64,000 bases of DNA from Allomyces arbusculus. Its lineage: Eukaryota; Blastocladiomycota; Blastocladiomycetes; Blastocladiales; Blastocladiaceae. Position numbers and translations under genes: made by a program. The notes beneath the pieces were generated by a model that worked only from the letters and a program-made list of their open reading frames with translations, made no database searches and was not told where the DNA came from. This document shows, piece by piece, positions 1 through 43,972 of this stretch (position 1 is its first letter; every line of letters starts with the position of its first letter). The DNA is taken from contig JADHYV010000029.1 in NCBI GenBank assembly GCA_027604705.1, positions 1 through 64,000 of the forward strand, given 5' to 3'.

Positions 1-262
1 AACCTAAAAAACCTAAAAACCTAAAAACCTAAACCTAACCTAAAAAACCTAAAACCTAACCTAAAACCTAAAAAACCTAAAAAACCTAAAAAACCTAAAA
101 AAAAACCTAAAAACCTAAAAACCTAAAAACCTAAAACCTAAAAACCTAAAACCTAAAAACCTAAAACCTAACCTAAAACCTAACAAAAAACCTAAAAACC
201 TAACCTAACCTAAAACCTAAAACCTAAAAACCTAAAAACCTAAAAACCTAAAAACCTAACCG
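1..262. repeat. Telomere, variable CCTA(n) repeat
   Basis: An uninterrupted array of about 38 units of CCT followed by a run of A, where the A run varies from 2 to 9 and is most often 5 or 4. Read outward on the other strand this is T(2-9)AGG, always with two G. One unit is imperfect (taacaaaaaa). The array starts at base 1 and stops at ccggg near 262, so this is the left chromosome end with the C-rich strand shown. The regular fungal and vertebrate TTAGGG unit is absent. The A-run variation is seen directly; whether part of it is homopolymer sequencing error cannot be told here. Confidence 0.95.
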
Positions 263-27909: not shown

Positions 27910-29759
27910 GTCCCAACACGGGCGGCGTCGTGTCGTGTGCCACCGTTTGCTGCAAGTTGGCCGGCGCGATGCGCGCCGTGGGTCGCGAGCTCGCTGTTCA
28001 TGAACATTTTGCCCATCACGGCCATCACGACCACCGCCCCGACCACCGCAACACGCCCGCGCCGTCGCAGACGCTGCTGCCGTTAGAACCGCGACGCGTT
28101 TGCCGTTGCGAGTGGCCGCCTGTCACGCCCCCATACCCACACAGCACTGCCTCTCGGTCTCACCGCGCGCGTGGTGTGTGCCTCTTGCCTGAACGGATCG
28201 CTCGCTGCGGCCGCGACCTCTCTCATCCCTCCTCACATCCTTGGTCCCTCTCATCCCCCTTTCAACGTTGATAAATCTCCATTTTCGCCGGTTGATACGG
28301 CGCGCGACGGCGAACACGCGGACAACCTTGCGCCAACCTTGTCGAAATGTTAATTTGGTTTCGTATCGTCGTGTTTGCCAAACTGGTCCTTTCCGCGCAA
28401 CTTTCGGGCGTCCAGTAGCTTACCGTTGGACCGATTCACGACGCACGATGACCCGTCGTGCAAGAGCACACTGTCTATCCATGTGGGCCATCTCATCCTG
28501 TGGCGGTTCCCTGTCTGGTGGGCGGGATGTGCGTGGCCCAGATTGGGCCCTTGGGCGGTGGGGACTGGCGGGGACCAAAGGCAGAAGCAAGAGAAGCAAG
28601 GACGAGGAAGCCCTGGAGCAGAGTTCGGGCGCTTCGTCGTGGTCGACGGTAAACCTTGCGCCCAGCCGCCGCCCTTCCACCGTCGGCGGCGCGTGCGGGG
28701 GCTGGCCGGCCCTCACCAACACTCACCACGAGTCGAGGGCCGCCGGCGAGTCGCGGCACGCGGTGCGCCGCTGCCCGCCTGGCGACGGTTTGGCACCGGA
28801 AAGGGATCACAGAGATGGCTGTGGACGCAGTCAGTTTGTCGTCGCCGTCAACTATCGGCCGCTCCCCCGTTCTCTCTCCTCTCCATCCTCTTCGCCATCA
28901 ACAACGACCACGACGACGACGCTGTGAGCGATCCCTTGATCCCCCCGCTCGGCGCCCAGCACCCGACGAACGACGCTCTTTTTGCACACGCGCGCGACCG
29001 TGATCGGCGCGAGTCTACCATTGCCCCCGATTTTGCTCTGCTCGTTGCAGCACGCGCGCCAGTCGCCCCTGCAAGCACCAAGTACATCTGCTGCAGTTAA
29101 GAGCAGCGACACTGCACATTGCGACAGTGACCGAATTCTTTGCTGCGATCACGGCGCCAATCGTGCGACCGTGCGGTGCCACGACCTCTGCACACCGACG
29201 CTGTCGAGCAGCGCCTTCACGGCCGAGTTAGCGGCCGTCCTGCCCAGCGCGACTTGCTCGTGCGCTGCGGTGAGCTAGCTCGATCCCGCGCGCGCGCTCT
29301 GTGCCGCCTTGCTCGGTACGTTTTGTATGGATTCGAGTTGGACGCGGTGGACGCGGTGGACGCGGTGGCCGTGGTCGGTGCGGTAGAAGATGGGCCGGGC
29401 TCTGTGATCGTTTGATTGCAGTGGCGATGCAACGTTGTGCCGGCTCGCGGCCAACTCTGTTGCGGTTCGGCGCGCAGCAGCGGCTCACCGCTTGCTGCAG
29501 GGAATACACGGCAGCACCGTGCGATGCCATTTCTCGACCACTGCGCCCACACACGCCGGCCCGCCCGCCCACCCCACCTGCCCGTCGCGTCGACAGACCG
29601 AGCCGCGCCGCCGAACAACGTGCCGCGCCCGCGGTGCCCGCCGTCGAGCCGGCCGGGGCGGGCCGGGCACACGCGTGTGGAAACCGGTTGGGCTCACGAC
29701 GCGCGTTCTCTCTCCTCGTTCTCCTTTTCTCCATCTAGCCCTCCTCCTCCTTCCCCACT
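27910..29759. other. Intergenic, divergent promoters
   Basis: About 1.85 kb between the start of the minus-strand helical protein and the start of chitin synthase on the plus strand. Open frames here show no protein-like pattern. A small tandem repeat of gacgcggtg (three to four copies) is at about 29341-29370. A pyrimidine-rich stretch (ctctcctcgttctcc...) at 29705-29757 precedes the chitin synthase ATG. Confidence 0.5.
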
Positions 29760-32700
29760 ATGCCGTCGCGTCCGCTGCCGCCGACTGCCGGCGACGGCTA
29801 CGCCGACGGGTACGGCGACGCCGCGCACAACGTCTGGTCCGACGCGCCGCCACCCCTGCGATCCTCGCCAACGGCACCACCACCATCACAAGCACGACCC
29901 GACGAGCGCGTGCCGCTCGCGACTTTCGATTCCGGCATCAACAACCACAGCAACAACATGTACGCGCCGCCGATCTCGAACCCGCCCGGCAACACCAACC
30001 CCTACGCGTCGCCGCCACCCACGGCCATGCACGCGTCGCCGCACGCCATGCACCATCCGTCGCCGCAGCGGTACCTTGTCCACCCGAAATCGAACGGCGC
30101 GGGGAACGGTGTCGTTGCGCCGCTCGATAAGCCGGGAACGCCGCTGCTCGGCAGCCCGCACGCGATCCCGCCGCACTTGTCGCCGCAGTCGCAGCAGCAG
30201 CAGAACCAGCGGCAGAGCCGCGGGTCGGGCGGGTCTGCGTGGAAGTCGTTGTCGCGCGTCATGGGTACCTATTCTCCTTAGCGCCTTATCTTACGCGCTC
30301 CGCTTCTTGGACGCCATGCTGACTTTGCCTCGTTCAATTTTTCCTGATCCTCCAGGTCTCGGCGGTGCGTCGTCGTCGTCGGCTTCGCCCACGAGCCCAG
30401 GCACGTCCCGACAAGCGGAGGCCGGCGCAACCGCCTCGGGCCGCACGACGTTTGGCCGCAAAAAGTCGCTCGTCCGGCGCGACCGCGCCCCACGGCGTAA
30501 CAGCCACCACCACCAAGTGCTCTTCGACACGTCGGCCGCCGCGGGCGGCGCGCGCGGCAATCCCGGCGGCGGCGAAGGCCCCATGTACATATCGCGCGGC
30601 CCAATGACGCTGCCGCGCGGCAATTTCGAAAAGCCGCAGACGCGGTGTCGCCAAGTGTGGGTCCTGTTTGCGCGCATCATCACGTTCTACATCCCGTCGG
30701 CCGCGCTCGAAATGGCCGGGATGCACGACGCCGAGATTCAGCTGGCGTGGCGCGAGAAGATGGCGCTTTGCTCGATTTCCGTCATGTTCATGGCGATTGT
30801 CGCGTTCCTCACGTTTGGGTTTAATGCCGTGCTCTGTGTCCCGCAGCCGACGCGCATGAATGCGGATTCGGTCGAGACCGGGTTTGTCGCGATGAACGGG
30901 ATCGCGCTCGACGTTTCGACCTTCTCGCACGCGTACGGTGGCCGCCCGGCACTGTCCTTTGACAAGTTTCTCGCGCGTGGGCAAGACTTGGCGTCGCGCG
31001 ACGTGTCGCTGCTCTTCCAGCCGGCGTACGGCGCGGTGCCCGAGTGCAAGGCCCTGTTCGGCCACCAGAACATTGCGCCCGAGGATTACCTGTTCCCATG
31101 CACCGTGCCCGGCTCCGACATGAAAGACCTGTTTGGCGGCGAGTACGACAAGTCGCACTGCCACGGCCCGCCCGCCGTGATTGCCGATACCGTGCACGTC
31201 TTCTCGGCCAACCACCTGCGCCGCGACTTGTACATCACCTGGGACGCGCTGCACGACCCGCGCAACAAGTACTTTGCGTTCAATGGCGACGTCGTCGACT
31301 TGAACCGACTGCTCCTGCTCAACAAGAAGATCGAGGACTGGAGTAACGTGAATGGGATCGACATGCGGGTGCTCATGCAGCGTGTCCTCAACAAGGACGC
31401 AAGTTACTACCTCGTCTCGAACGCGACATTGCGCGATGCGGCTACGTGTCTCGCCAAGGTCGCGCGCATCGGCGCCCTCGATGTCGCCACGGTCGGATGC
31501 ATTGCCTCGGACGTGATGCTGATCGTCTCGCTCGTCGTGATTTTGGGTCTGATCATGTCGCGGTTCATCATGGCCGCGCTCTTCCGGTGGTTCCTGGCGC
31601 CCAAGCTCGGCCGCAAGCTGTCGCCGGACGAGAAGAACGAGTACATTCGCATGCGGTTCGCGTCGATGCGGCGCGAAAAGCTGGCCGCGCACGCCTACGC
31701 GCAGTCGATCAAGTCGTCGTCGATGTCGGTGTTGACCGCACAGGGCACGCCGCTCGCGCAGTCCTTCTCGCTCGTCGATAACAACAGCGCCGGTGGCGTG
31801 CGCCGCGCGAGTTCCGAGTCGTCTTCGGCAACGACGTTGCCGGGGTACTCGGTCATGCCCAACATGCCGTCGATGATGCCGCCGGACTCGCCGTTCACGG
31901 CCGACCCGGACTCGGTGCTGGCTGAGATCCCGGACCCGGACTTCAACGCCGAGGAGGCGATGCACATGATTTTGCTCGTGACGTGCTATTCCGAGGGCGA
32001 GGCTGGAATTCGCACGACGCTCGATTCACTGGCCGCGACCGAGTATCTCGACTCGCACAAACTGTTATTTGTGATTGCCGACGGGATCATCACGGGTGCG
32101 GGCGAGTCCATGTCGACGCCCGACATTATCGTGAACATGATGGAAAAGGACCCGGCGTTCCCGGCCGACGCGAAGCCCTACTCGTACGTCGCTATCGCCG
32201 AGGGCGCCAAGCGGCACAACATGGCCAAGGTGCATGCGGGCTACTACGTCTACGAGGGTCGGCGCGTGCCGATGGTCTGTGTGGTCAAGTGCGGCACGCC
32301 CGACGAGCAAGGCGGCGCAAAACCTGGTAACCGCGGCAAGCGCGACTCGCAGGTCGTGCTCATGTCGTTCCTGCAAAAAGTCATGTTTGACGAGCGCATG
32401 ACGCCGCTCGAGTACGACCTGTACCAGAAGATTCACCGCATCACAAAAGTCACGCCCGACAATTACGAGACGGTGACGATGGTCGATGCCGACACCAAAG
32501 TCTCGCCCGATTGCATTCAGCGCATGGTCGCGTGCTTTGCGCGCGACCCGTCGGTCATGGGGCTCTGCGGCGAGACGCAGATCGATAACAAGTGGGGCTC
32601 CTGGGTCACAATGATCCAGGTGTTCGAGTACTACATTTCGCACCATCTCGCAAAGGTACGCTTGCAGTCTCAACTCGACGTGGACTCGATTTTGAACGAA

Positions 32701-33760
32701 ATAGCTGACGCTCTCTTCCGCGGTATAGGGCTTCGAATCCGTGTTCGGTGGCGTGACCTGTTTGCCCGGGTGCTTCTGCGCGTACCGGATCAAGACGCCC
32801 AAGCGCATGACGACTGACCCGAACATCCCCGCCGACCGGCGCGGCGGCCACTGGGTGCCCGTGCTGGCCAACCCGGACGTGGTCGAAGAGTACTCGGAGA
32901 ACGTGGTCGACACGCTGCATAAGAAGAACCTGCTCTTGCTCGGCGAGGACCGGTACCTGACGACGCTTATGATGCGTTCCTTCCCGAAACGCAAGATGGT
33001 CTTTGTGCCGCAAGCCACGTGCCAGACGTTTGTGCCCGACGAATTCAAGGTGCTGCTCTCGCAGCGCCGGCGGTGGATCAACTCGACGATTCACAATTTG
33101 ATGGAACTCGTGCTCGTGCGCGACCTGTGCGGGACCTTCTGCATCTCGATGCAGTTTGTAATCGCCATGGAACTCGTCGGCACCGTCGTCCTGCCCGCGG
33201 CCATCACGTTCACGCTCTACCTCGTCGTCATTTCCTTCTTCACGACGCCAGTGCCCGTCATTCCGCTGCTGCTGCTCGCTGCGATTCTCGGTCTGCCCGG
33301 GCTCCTGATCTTGATCACGACGCGCGAAGTCGAGTACATCTTCTGGATGCTCATCTACCTGATCGCGCTGCCCATTTGGAACTTTGTCCTGCCGGCCTAC
33401 GCGTTCTGGCACTTCGACGATTTTTCGTGGGGCGCGACGCGTGTCGTTGCGGGCGCTTCGGGCAAGGACGCGCACGGCGGCGCCGAGGGCGAGTTTGATT
33501 CGAGCCAGATCGTCATGAAGCGGTACCACGAGTGGGAGCAGATTCGCAAGCGCGCTATCGCGCAGGCCGCGCAGGCCGCGCAGCAGCAGGCGCAGCAACA
33601 AGCGCAAGCGCAGCAACAGCAGCGGTCGCAGTACTACGGCGTGCCCAACACGTTGTTGCGCGGTGGTGTGGCCACTGACTTTGACGGGGTCGCGATGCCG
33701 CCGGCAATGCCGTCCGCGTTACCGCCGCAACTTCCGCCAGTGCAATACGAGCTTCCGTAG
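29760..33760 (+). CDS. Chitin synthase (class IV/CHS3-like)
   Basis: Polymerises N-acetylglucosamine from UDP-GlcNAc into chitin at the plasma membrane. Three exons in phase, 29760-30264, 30356-32655 and 32729-33760, giving 1278 residues. A Pro/Ser/His-rich N-terminal tail is followed by two membrane segments (around 30640-30840) and a large extracytoplasmic loop, another membrane segment near 31500, then the glycosyltransferase domain. Visible catalytic motifs are VDADTKVSP (near residue 876), GEDRYLT (near 1007) and QRRRW (near 1046). C-terminal membrane segments ([37 protein letters not shown]) follow, then a Gln-rich tail. No myosin motor head is present, which fits class IV rather than V/VII. 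The start follows a pyrimidine-rich leader. Confidence 0.93.
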
Positions 33761-41006: not shown

Positions 41007-43972
41007 ATGTCCGACTCGGCCGACCGCATCCCACCACACCCGCCGCCACCCGCACGCCCGCCCTCGGCCACCGCCATCATCTCGCCCGCACAACACCGCG
41101 CGACCCTGCAGCGATCCAATGCGCCGCGCCAATCCGAGCCTGTCCTCCTCCCCGGCGCCGCTGCCGCCATTGCCTCGGCCTCCCCCGCCGTTCCCGCCGT
41201 CTCTGCCGCCGCCACGGGCTCGGACACGTCCGTCGTCGGTCGTGTGCGCCAGTCGGAACCCGTCCTGACGCTCCCGCGCGGCGGGCACGGTACCGGCACC
41301 GGCACGAGAAAGCGCGCGCTACGCGGCGTCTCGGTCCCCGGTCCAGGCGGCGCAGCGCCGTCGTTACCAGCTTCGCAGCAATACCTGACGGCGAGCCGGT
41401 ACACCAATGCCGAGGACGACGTGCCTGGCGCGCGCCTGCGTCTCGTGCGCAATACCTCGTTTGCATCGTCGGCCGCTGCGTCGGGTGCTTCTCCAGGAAC
41501 TGCTGTCCCGGCGGTGCCAGTGCACACCGTGCGCAAGGCCGATGTCCTGGCGACCTGGATCTGGGCCGTCTGGGACGTGCTCATGGCCGCCGTCCACGTC
41601 TACCACCTGGTCCTCGTCCCGCTGACGTGGGCGTGGGCGTGCGAATTGTCGACGCCCTGGTTCCTGGTCGCGGCCTACACGGCCGACTGCTTGAATATCG
41701 TGAATGTCGCACTGACGTGCTCGCGGCCGTACGTCGACGAGTTTGGCGTTACCGTAACCGTCCCGGCCATGATCCGCGAGCACTACTTTGCCCGCAATTT
41801 CGGCTGGCACGAACTGGTCGGCGCCGTGCCGTTTGATTTGATTATCATCTACTTGGCCGATTTCACGGGGACCTGTGTCGTGCAGCCGGGCGCGACGCAC
41901 TTGTCGTTTCGCTCCGAGTACGCTTTCGTTGTTTTCTTTGCGCGCTGCGCACGCACCCGCCTGCCGACGCGGTGGCCAACGCTACTCACACCCTTTTCTT
42001 GCGCTCCGCAGAAACTCGCCGTGGCACCTAACTCTCTGGGCGTGGCTGCGTACGCTGCGGTTCCTGACGCTGGCCCGACCCGTGCGCACCTTTTACCGCG
42101 CCGAAATGCCGCTGGTCCCACGCGCCGTTTCGCGCCTCCTCAAGTCGGTCGCGGCTTACGTGTGGATGACGCATTTCGACAATTGCCTCTTCTGGGCGCT
42201 GTGCAAGTGGGAAGACTCCGACCAGTCGTGGATCAATGTCAATTTCAGCATGACCAACACCGGGCTCAACGCGTCGTGGGCCACGCAGTACATGTTGTCG
42301 AGTTACGAGACGCAGCGCGTCTTGTTCTTTGACTTTCGCGATACGGGGACGACGGTCGAGTACTTGTACGGGCTCGTGGAGCTCGGGTTTGGCGTACGTT
42401 CACGGTTCGTCGGGGCGGTGGATGGCGACGCTGCTGTTTTGCTCACGATGTGGTCAACTTGTAGCTCTTGATCAACGGCATCGTGTTTGGCGAAATCACG
42501 TCGATCATCCAGTCAATGGACACGACCGGCACGCTCGAGGAGAATGTGCAGGCGCACCGGTTCCGCATGGAGTGCCTGTGCCAGTTTATGCGGCAGCGCA
42601 GGTTCCCCGTGGAACTGCAAAAGCGCGGTACGTTCGCGAGCCCTGCTCTCTCCGTGCTCTCCTCTCCTTCCTCCACCCGACCTCGACGCCTCCTCTCTCC
42701 GCCCTCTCCACCCGACAGCGTCGCGCCGTGCCCTCTCCCACCTTCCCCGTCCCATTCCATATGACCCTTCTCAGCCTTATAGTCTGCCAGCACAACGAAT
42801 TCGAATGGATCCGGCACAAAGGTCTTGCCGAAGACGAGCTCTTCGGAAACATGCCCGCATCTCTCCACCAAGACGTGTGCAACCACCTGTTCCTGCCCTT
42901 ACTTGCGTCAATGCCGCTCTTCAAGGACTGCGACGCGGCGTTCACAGCCTCGCTTGCGCGGGCCATGCGCATGATCACCGTTAACGAAGATTTTTACGTG
43001 TTTCGGCACAACGACGACGGCCAAGAAATGTATTTTTGCCGGTCCGGGTGTGTGGAAGTGATATTACCCGACGGCAAAGTGATATGCCAGTTGAAGTCGG
43101 GCGCGTTCTTTGGCGAGATTGCGCGTACGTACCCGCCATCACGACTGGGGGGGGGGGGGGGGGGGGGGGGGGGCCGGGGGGGGGGGGGGGGGGGGGGGGG
43201 GGCCTGGCAGCGCGCGATTCGGCGACGTGGCGGCGTCGGCAGCGGTGGACGGGATGAGNNNNNNNNNNCCCCCTCCCCCCCCTGCCGGCGGCGTTCGATC
43301 GACCGTGACTGACACACCACCGTGTCGGAAATGCAGTGTTTGGTTCGTATACGCAGGCCAGCCCGCTCGTCAGGCGTCGACGAGTCTCGTCTCCACCACC
43401 ACCCCCCCTCACCCTCCTTCTGCGCACCACCCCCGACGGTAGAAGCGTGCCGCCGCACCGCCTCCGTGCGCACCAAATCCGTCACCGAACTCTGTATTCT
43501 GCACAAACACGACTTCGACCTCATCCTCTCGGCCTACCCGAAACTCGCCGACGCGTTCCGCCGCGGCATCGACGAAAAAAAACGCGCCGACGCGAAACGC
43601 CGCGACGACGAGCACCGCGCGCGCGAGGCCGCGGCTGCTGCTGCTGCGGCCGCCGCCGCGCAGGCGGCCGCTTCCGAAAAGGCGGCGGTCGCGCCCGTGC
43701 GGCGGTTGCGCGCGCGCGGCGTCTCGGCAATCGTGTTGACGGGACCCTCCGCACGGGGGTCGGATGGGGAACTGGGAGGGAAGGGGGTGGGGGTGATGGC
43801 GAGGGCGGCAAGGGTGTCGCTGTCGCTGTTGCATTTAGCGGGTGGAGGAGGTGGAGGCGGAGGTAGTGGGGGTGGGGGTGGGACGGGCGCAGGGGGTGGA
43901 GCGGGGAGGCCGAGGGAGAGTGTGGAGTCGTCGGGGTCGGTGGAGAAGGTGGGGAAGTCGGGGAGGCACTGA
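41007..43972 (+). CDS. Cyclic-nucleotide-gated channel family protein, unusual pore
   Basis: A six-segment voltage-gated-like cation channel with a cyclic-nucleotide-binding domain, plasma or ciliary membrane. Five exons in phase: 41007-41917, 42012-42393, 42465-42627, 42783-43124, 43443-43972, giving 775 residues. S1 is near 185-210, S4 carries Arg every third or so residue (WLRTLRFLTLARPVRTFYR), S5 near 345-370. S6 and C-linker read LLINGIVFGEITSIIQSMD, RRFPVELQKR, NEFEWIRHKG. The CNBD (about 518-625) includes FFGEIA and, across the intron, RRTASVRTKSVTELC. At the filter position, where TVGYGD-like sequence is expected, the protein reads RVLFFDFRDTG. The tail is Ala- and Gly-rich. The last intron contains poly-G and an assembly gap, but splice sites on both sides are clear. 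Confidence 0.88.
43149..43285. other. Poly-G tracts, gap of 10 N, poly-C tract
   Basis: Two long G runs separated by cc, about 45 bp of ordinary sequence, ten N at 43259-43268, then C-rich sequence. All of it lies in the last intron of the channel gene. The gap size may be arbitrary. G then C runs flanking a gap could be a hairpin-forming or G-quadruplex-forming locus that sequencing could not cross, or a read-end artefact. Confidence 0.9.

Follow-up and report, generated by a model that had tools for sequence, protein, structure and literature searches.

Telomeric arrays with a variable T-run before a largely constant AGG at the contig ends of a fungus-like genome

The window and its terminal array

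The DNA described here is a stretch of 64,000 nucleotides, referred to as the window, which forms the left end of contig C29 (284,793 bases) in an assembly of 25.9 Mb and 197 contigs. It opens with a telomere array, followed by GC-rich unique sequence (Table 1). On the G-rich strand, the array reads T(2-9)AGG toward base 1 and comprises 34 complete units and one odd unit, its first CCTAA lying at 3-7 and its last at 255-259. Leaving out the first, centromere-side unit, a TTAGG behind GG, the T-runs of the other 33 units are six T2, one T3, eight T4, twelve T5, five T6 and one T9. The remaining 63.7 kb of the window holds just 5 CCTAA and 8 TTAGG, so the array is not a product of chance. The start of the window is a real chromosome end, in which the T-run varies from two to nine while two Gs are kept. 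This agrees with a previous reading of the sequence alone (the sequence-only reading), which had recognised a telomere with a variable T-run and two retained Gs and had named T5 as its commonest run. Its estimate of about 38 units was slightly high, although the array itself is real.

Further in, the window encodes a chitin synthase frame. Its Chitin_synth_2 match covers only profile positions 22-265 of 527, which indicates that the gene continues past an intron or a frameshift. This frame, with its CHS4-like domain, is the basis for calling the genome fungus-like; a search for bacterial SSU sequences gave no match. Other frames matched Pfam entries for SNF2 with a chromodomain, RasGEF_N and a cNMP-binding domain, with a weak match to Rad51/KaiC, while of the 20 frames scanned in the window, 15 gave no Pfam hit at the cut-offs applied. 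An almost pure G-run also interrupts an otherwise gene-dense stretch, and may be either real or an assembly artefact.

Table 1. Positions of the features discussed, in the window and on two other contigs
Feature	Position	Strand	Description	Basis
Telomere array	1..259	-	T(2-9)AGG units	Sequence, tandem repeat finder, unit counts
Odd unit within array	172..195	-	Six-T run, then G, then TTAGG	Sequence
Array/subtelomeric unique sequence junction	255..262	.	Unique sequence from about 260; GC 0.67 over the next 2.7 kb	Sequence, composition
Chitin synthase frame	29416-32817		1133 aa, CHS4-like domain	Pfam
G-run	43147-43202		About 56 Gs, two interruptions at most; 96% G	Tandem repeat finder
Telomerase_RBD	C8:21372-21893		Above cut-off, in three stretches	Profile search
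POT1-like domain	C26:42123-42488		Just under cut-off	Pfam

Arrays at other contig ends

The same mixture of T-runs recurs elsewhere in the genome, where the sequence-only reading had proposed to look for it. Pattern searches located 21 arrays on 20 contigs, namely the window and 20 more (L039-L058), each 184-498 bases long. One of these lies at the right end of C29, so that both ends of this 284.8 kb contig are telomeric. All but one of the arrays (20/21) terminate no more than 10 bases from the contig end; the sequence taken for L058 stops 140 bases short. Their orientation is consistent, with CCTAA on the forward strand at contig starts and TTAGG at contig ends, so that the G-strand runs 5' to 3' toward the end.

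Two of the search patterns require mixed runs, and a looser telomere pattern, which also matches constant arrays of TTAGG, TTTTTAGG or TTAGGG, was therefore counted as a check on selection. Of its 898 matches genome-wide, 878 fall inside the 21 arrays. Given the breadth of the pattern, few further arrays, whether constant or variable, can exist in the assembly. One of the 20 remaining matches is non-telomeric (C20:79252), and the 140 bases of C164 outside the counted sequence must hold some of the others. No array was found at the right end of C139 or the left end of C164, both of which were inspected; most contigs simply stop before a chromosome end.

Some subtelomeric sequence is also common to several ends. 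For example, AAGGCCCTT is found close to the telomere junction, either adjoining it or slightly inward of it and no more than about 360 bases from the contig end, at 4 of the 21 ends (L046, L047, L048 and L057), and occurs farther in at a fifth (L058); it is perhaps the edge of a common subtelomeric element. Longer blocks are common to L053, L054, L055 and L056, such as 1244 bases at 87.5% between L053 and L056. The only such block in the window is one of 184 bases, found in L055 at 76%.

Composition and order of the units

Composition was counted with the first unit of each of the 21 arrays left out. The 911 complete units comprise 200 T2, 131 T3, 205 T4, 226 T5, 98 T6, 43 T7, 6 T8 and 2 T9. 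Runs of T2 to T6 each occur at all 21 ends, T7 at 18, T8 at four and T9 at two; a constant repeat at other ends, which the sequence-only reading had named as one outcome that would overturn it, was thus not seen. Complete T1 units are absent (0/911), and GGTAGG was not found in the arrays. The distribution has two parts. T3 is less common than both T2 (p 2e-4) and T4 (p 6e-5), and a peak at 4.4 (s.d. 1.3) with an added T2 spike of 17% fits better than a single peak (AIC 3153.9 vs 3218.8).

The rest of the unit is far more uniform. Of 963 G-runs, 934 consist of two Gs, 27 of one and two of three. Among 950 units, the tail is AGG in 911, AG in 18, G in nine, A in seven, AGGG in two, GG in one and AA in one, with one longer insert. 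Aborted units, of which the odd unit in the window is an example, are rare (35/950 across the 21 arrays). These arrays resemble neither a fixed-unit telomere such as TTAGGG, in which a single unit would predominate, since the commonest unit here (T5) makes up only 226 of 911, nor the irregular yeast type with variable numbers of G or TG, given the near-constant pair of Gs.

Along the arrays, adjacent runs are nearly independent of each other (chi-square 45.8 vs 26.1, s.d. 7.3, in 3000 shuffles; p 0.011). A T2 is followed by another T2 slightly less often than in shuffles (34 observed vs 42.8, s.d. 5.0; p 0.046), and a shortfall this small excludes strict alternation. A further dependence follows aborted units. 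In a comparison devised after the data were seen, a T2 run directly follows 20 of the 35 units with the tails A, AA, AG or G, compared with 180 of the 890 complete units (Fisher p 3e-6). The thirds of the arrays are alike in mixture, the outermost being as mixed as the innermost, and T2 makes up 24% of the centromere-side third (first units left out). The ends differ slightly in mixture (p 0.027), with mean T-runs from 3.46 to 4.78. The longest string of units common to any two arrays is seven, within the range of the maxima in 20 shuffles (6 to 9). This absence of long common strings leads us to reject copying between ends and, together with the near-random order of runs, indicates that the variation arises at synthesis. 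Every end appears to be written anew.

Telomerase components

A candidate for the enzyme is present on C8, where a profile search placed a Telomerase_RBD domain (Table 1). Nearby frames carry KVDIESAFDSI, GIPQGGVLSPML and RFVDDFLLLT, which we take to resemble reverse-transcriptase motifs A, B' and C, respectively. When the C8 pieces were scanned with hmmscan, two matched Telomerase_RBD and a third matched RVT_1 below the cut-off, while the piece bearing the B'-like stretch had no Pfam match. Matches to solved structures for two of the pieces were telomerase reverse transcriptases in 8/8 cases (best E 0.0018) and 3/3 cases (best E 0.13). Judged by these similarities, the genome encodes a predicted telomerase reverse transcriptase. 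A possible end-binding protein is represented by the POT1-like domain on C26, which scores 28.2 of the 29 bits required (second score 27.3) and has one solved-structure match, to POT1 (E 0.44).

The telomerase RNA was sought with four template patterns run across the genome, whose matches were never commoner than those of reversed controls. GGTTTTTAGGV had 3 matches (L059-L061) vs 29 for the reversed pattern, TTTTAGGTTS 13 (L069-L081) vs 90, GGTTTTN{0,2}AGGTV 39 vs 121, and TAAAAN{0,2}CCTAAK 6 vs 33. Five of the last six belong to telomere arrays or border them on the inner side; the sole internal one is at C16:59824-59834, in a low-GC stretch. L060 was set aside, as it sits just before an RRM-domain frame and is probably a messenger leader. 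The likeliest looking match, L069 (C1:1028124, GAACCTAAAACC, also in a low-GC stretch), was rejected too, with most of its would-be template in a small hairpin and a predicted fold no more stable than shuffles (z -0.85). The Rfam model Telomerase_Asco had no match in the genome, an uninformative result given that its control was likewise without a match. No candidate stands out from chance, and none is claimed as the telomerase RNA. The rarity of telomere-like strings outside the arrays relative to reversed controls (13 vs 90; 3 vs 29) is perhaps due to the stop codons contained in TTAGG and CCTAA.

Origin of the T-run variation

Synthesis of the arrays by telomerase, as telomeres of the TxAyGz kind, is well supported by their position, their orientation and the reverse transcriptase gene. 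Most likely, the variation stems from loose copying of the RNA template by this enzyme. The explanation towards which we lean is that the template offers an A-run on which the DNA end can re-anneal in two or more registers, with slippage in addition. The template would contain an A-run adjoining CC. After each round, the DNA end would re-anneal at one of several positions on the A-run, and the enzyme may also slip there. Rounds in register would then yield roughly T4-T5, give or take one or two Ts, while TTAGG would result from entry at the template's 3' edge, to which aborted rounds would predispose. Faithful copying of the lone A and of the two Gs would be expected, because they do not form a long homopolymer. 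On this reading, handling of the template is what varies the T-run, and slippage on the A-run would explain both the breadth of the distribution and the near-independence of the runs. That a second register is entered at the template's 3' edge is suggested by two observations, the T2 spike and the frequent T2 runs that follow aborted rounds; neither amounts to proof of two registers. On a single A4 template, T5 would not be expected to be as common as T4, as it is here.

The sequence-only reading had proposed a telomerase that stutters on the A/U part of its RNA template. From this it had predicted an unusual template, for which the searches yielded no RNA above chance, and perhaps altered end-binding proteins, of which only the POT1-like domain just under the Pfam cut-off was observed. 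In the plainest form of the proposal, there would be one register, forward and backward slipping on an A-run of about five, and T2 as the shortest run that still pairs. This plausibly accounts for near-independent successive runs, a broad spread, a floor at T2 and a tail to T9, but by itself gives neither the T2 excess with its T3 dip nor the T2 bias after aborted units, and we regard it as unlikely to be sufficient. The two-part distribution would also follow if the same ends were served by more than one telomerase RNA gene, each with its own template (e.g. A2 and A4-A5). For Zygosaccharomyces sapae, three telomerase RNA homologues that differ in template are reported (PMC8211666). However, the pattern searches identified no RNA gene in this genome, near-random use of the templates would be required at every end, and nothing in such an arrangement would favour T2 after aborted units, which makes this option improbable.

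Two further explanations place the variation outside synthesis. One is a constant repeat, e.g. TTTTTAGG, blurred by the homopolymer errors that noisy long reads produce where coverage of contig ends is thin; such errors would be expected to leave a single peak of run lengths. The variation does sit in the longest homopolymer of the unit, and error may contribute to the spread over T4-T7. Nevertheless, 685 of the 911 units are not T5, and the T3 dip, together with the near-constant A and the two-G runs in 934/963 cases, speaks against a single fixed repeat; the error model fitted was a symmetrical peak alone. Open frames of 1133 and 1353 aa in the window likewise suggest an absence of rampant indels, although the 1133-aa chitin synthase frame is itself ended by an intron or a frameshift. 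Sequencing error on a constant repeat is thus a very improbable source of the whole pattern. Harder still to credit is a history in which one repeat was synthesised accurately and older copies were later altered by mutation or recombination. It would fit the slight differences in mixture between ends (p 0.027), but the outermost and innermost thirds are equally mixed, substitutions are rare and no long unit strings are common to arrays.

Returning to re-annealing in more than one register, a more specific version can be put forward, although we hold it to be doubtful as a whole. The template would have two entry points, one a long internal A-run and the other a short A-run on the 3' edge. The length of each repeat would then be a nearly random draw from a two-part distribution, and proteins binding the end would read AGG while tolerating repeats of 5 to 12 bases.

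Comparison with known telomeres

A variable T-run before AGG is already known from Chloropicon, and milder forms are known from a small number of algae and yeasts. Chloropicon primus and C. roscoffensis carry (TT)TTTAGG, that is TTTAGG to TTTTTAGG, in all genomes sequenced in that study (PMC12301720). In terms of the repeat pattern alone, the T-run varies and AGG is kept both there and here; however, these green algae are reported to have T3-T5 only, whereas the present genome is fungus-like and has T2-T9 with an excess of T2. In Schizosaccharomyces osmophilus, 9- and 11-base units (about 59% and 36%) are mixed in single HiFi reads, and two annealing registers on one RNA template were proposed for the two repeat types (PMC10085805). 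A mixture of repeat lengths and the two-register explanation, also proposed here, are shared, but the repeat sequence differs, and the RNA is known there and was not found here.

Other telomeres are more distant in pattern. In Chlamydomonas reinhardtii (TTTTAGGG), 636 of 709 repeats are canonical, with T3 and T5 variants beside T4 (PMC6549138), in contrast to a commonest unit of 226/911 here, and the algal unit ends in GGG, the present one in GG. Klebsormidium (TTTTAGG) and Cestrum elegans (TTTTTTAGGG) have T-rich units of similar make-up, but these are given as fixed (PMC9498494), whereas the units here vary. Saccharomyces telomeres, T(G)2-3(TG)1-6 (PMC10100673), are likewise irregular telomerase products, in which the numbers of TG and G vary instead of almost only T. 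For the chytrid B. dendrobatidis, TTAGGG has been reported (PMC11797018). Word-matching searches of open-licence literature returned no T2-T9AGG telomere among the matches listed, a weak indication of absence.

Significance

These arrays show the extent of T-run variation that is compatible with a fixed AGG in a telomere. The length distribution measured over 911 units constrains models of template re-annealing and slippage, and it predicts features of the telomerase RNA template. In addition, such chromosome ends may be overlooked or wrongly named by telomere finders set up for a single constant unit.
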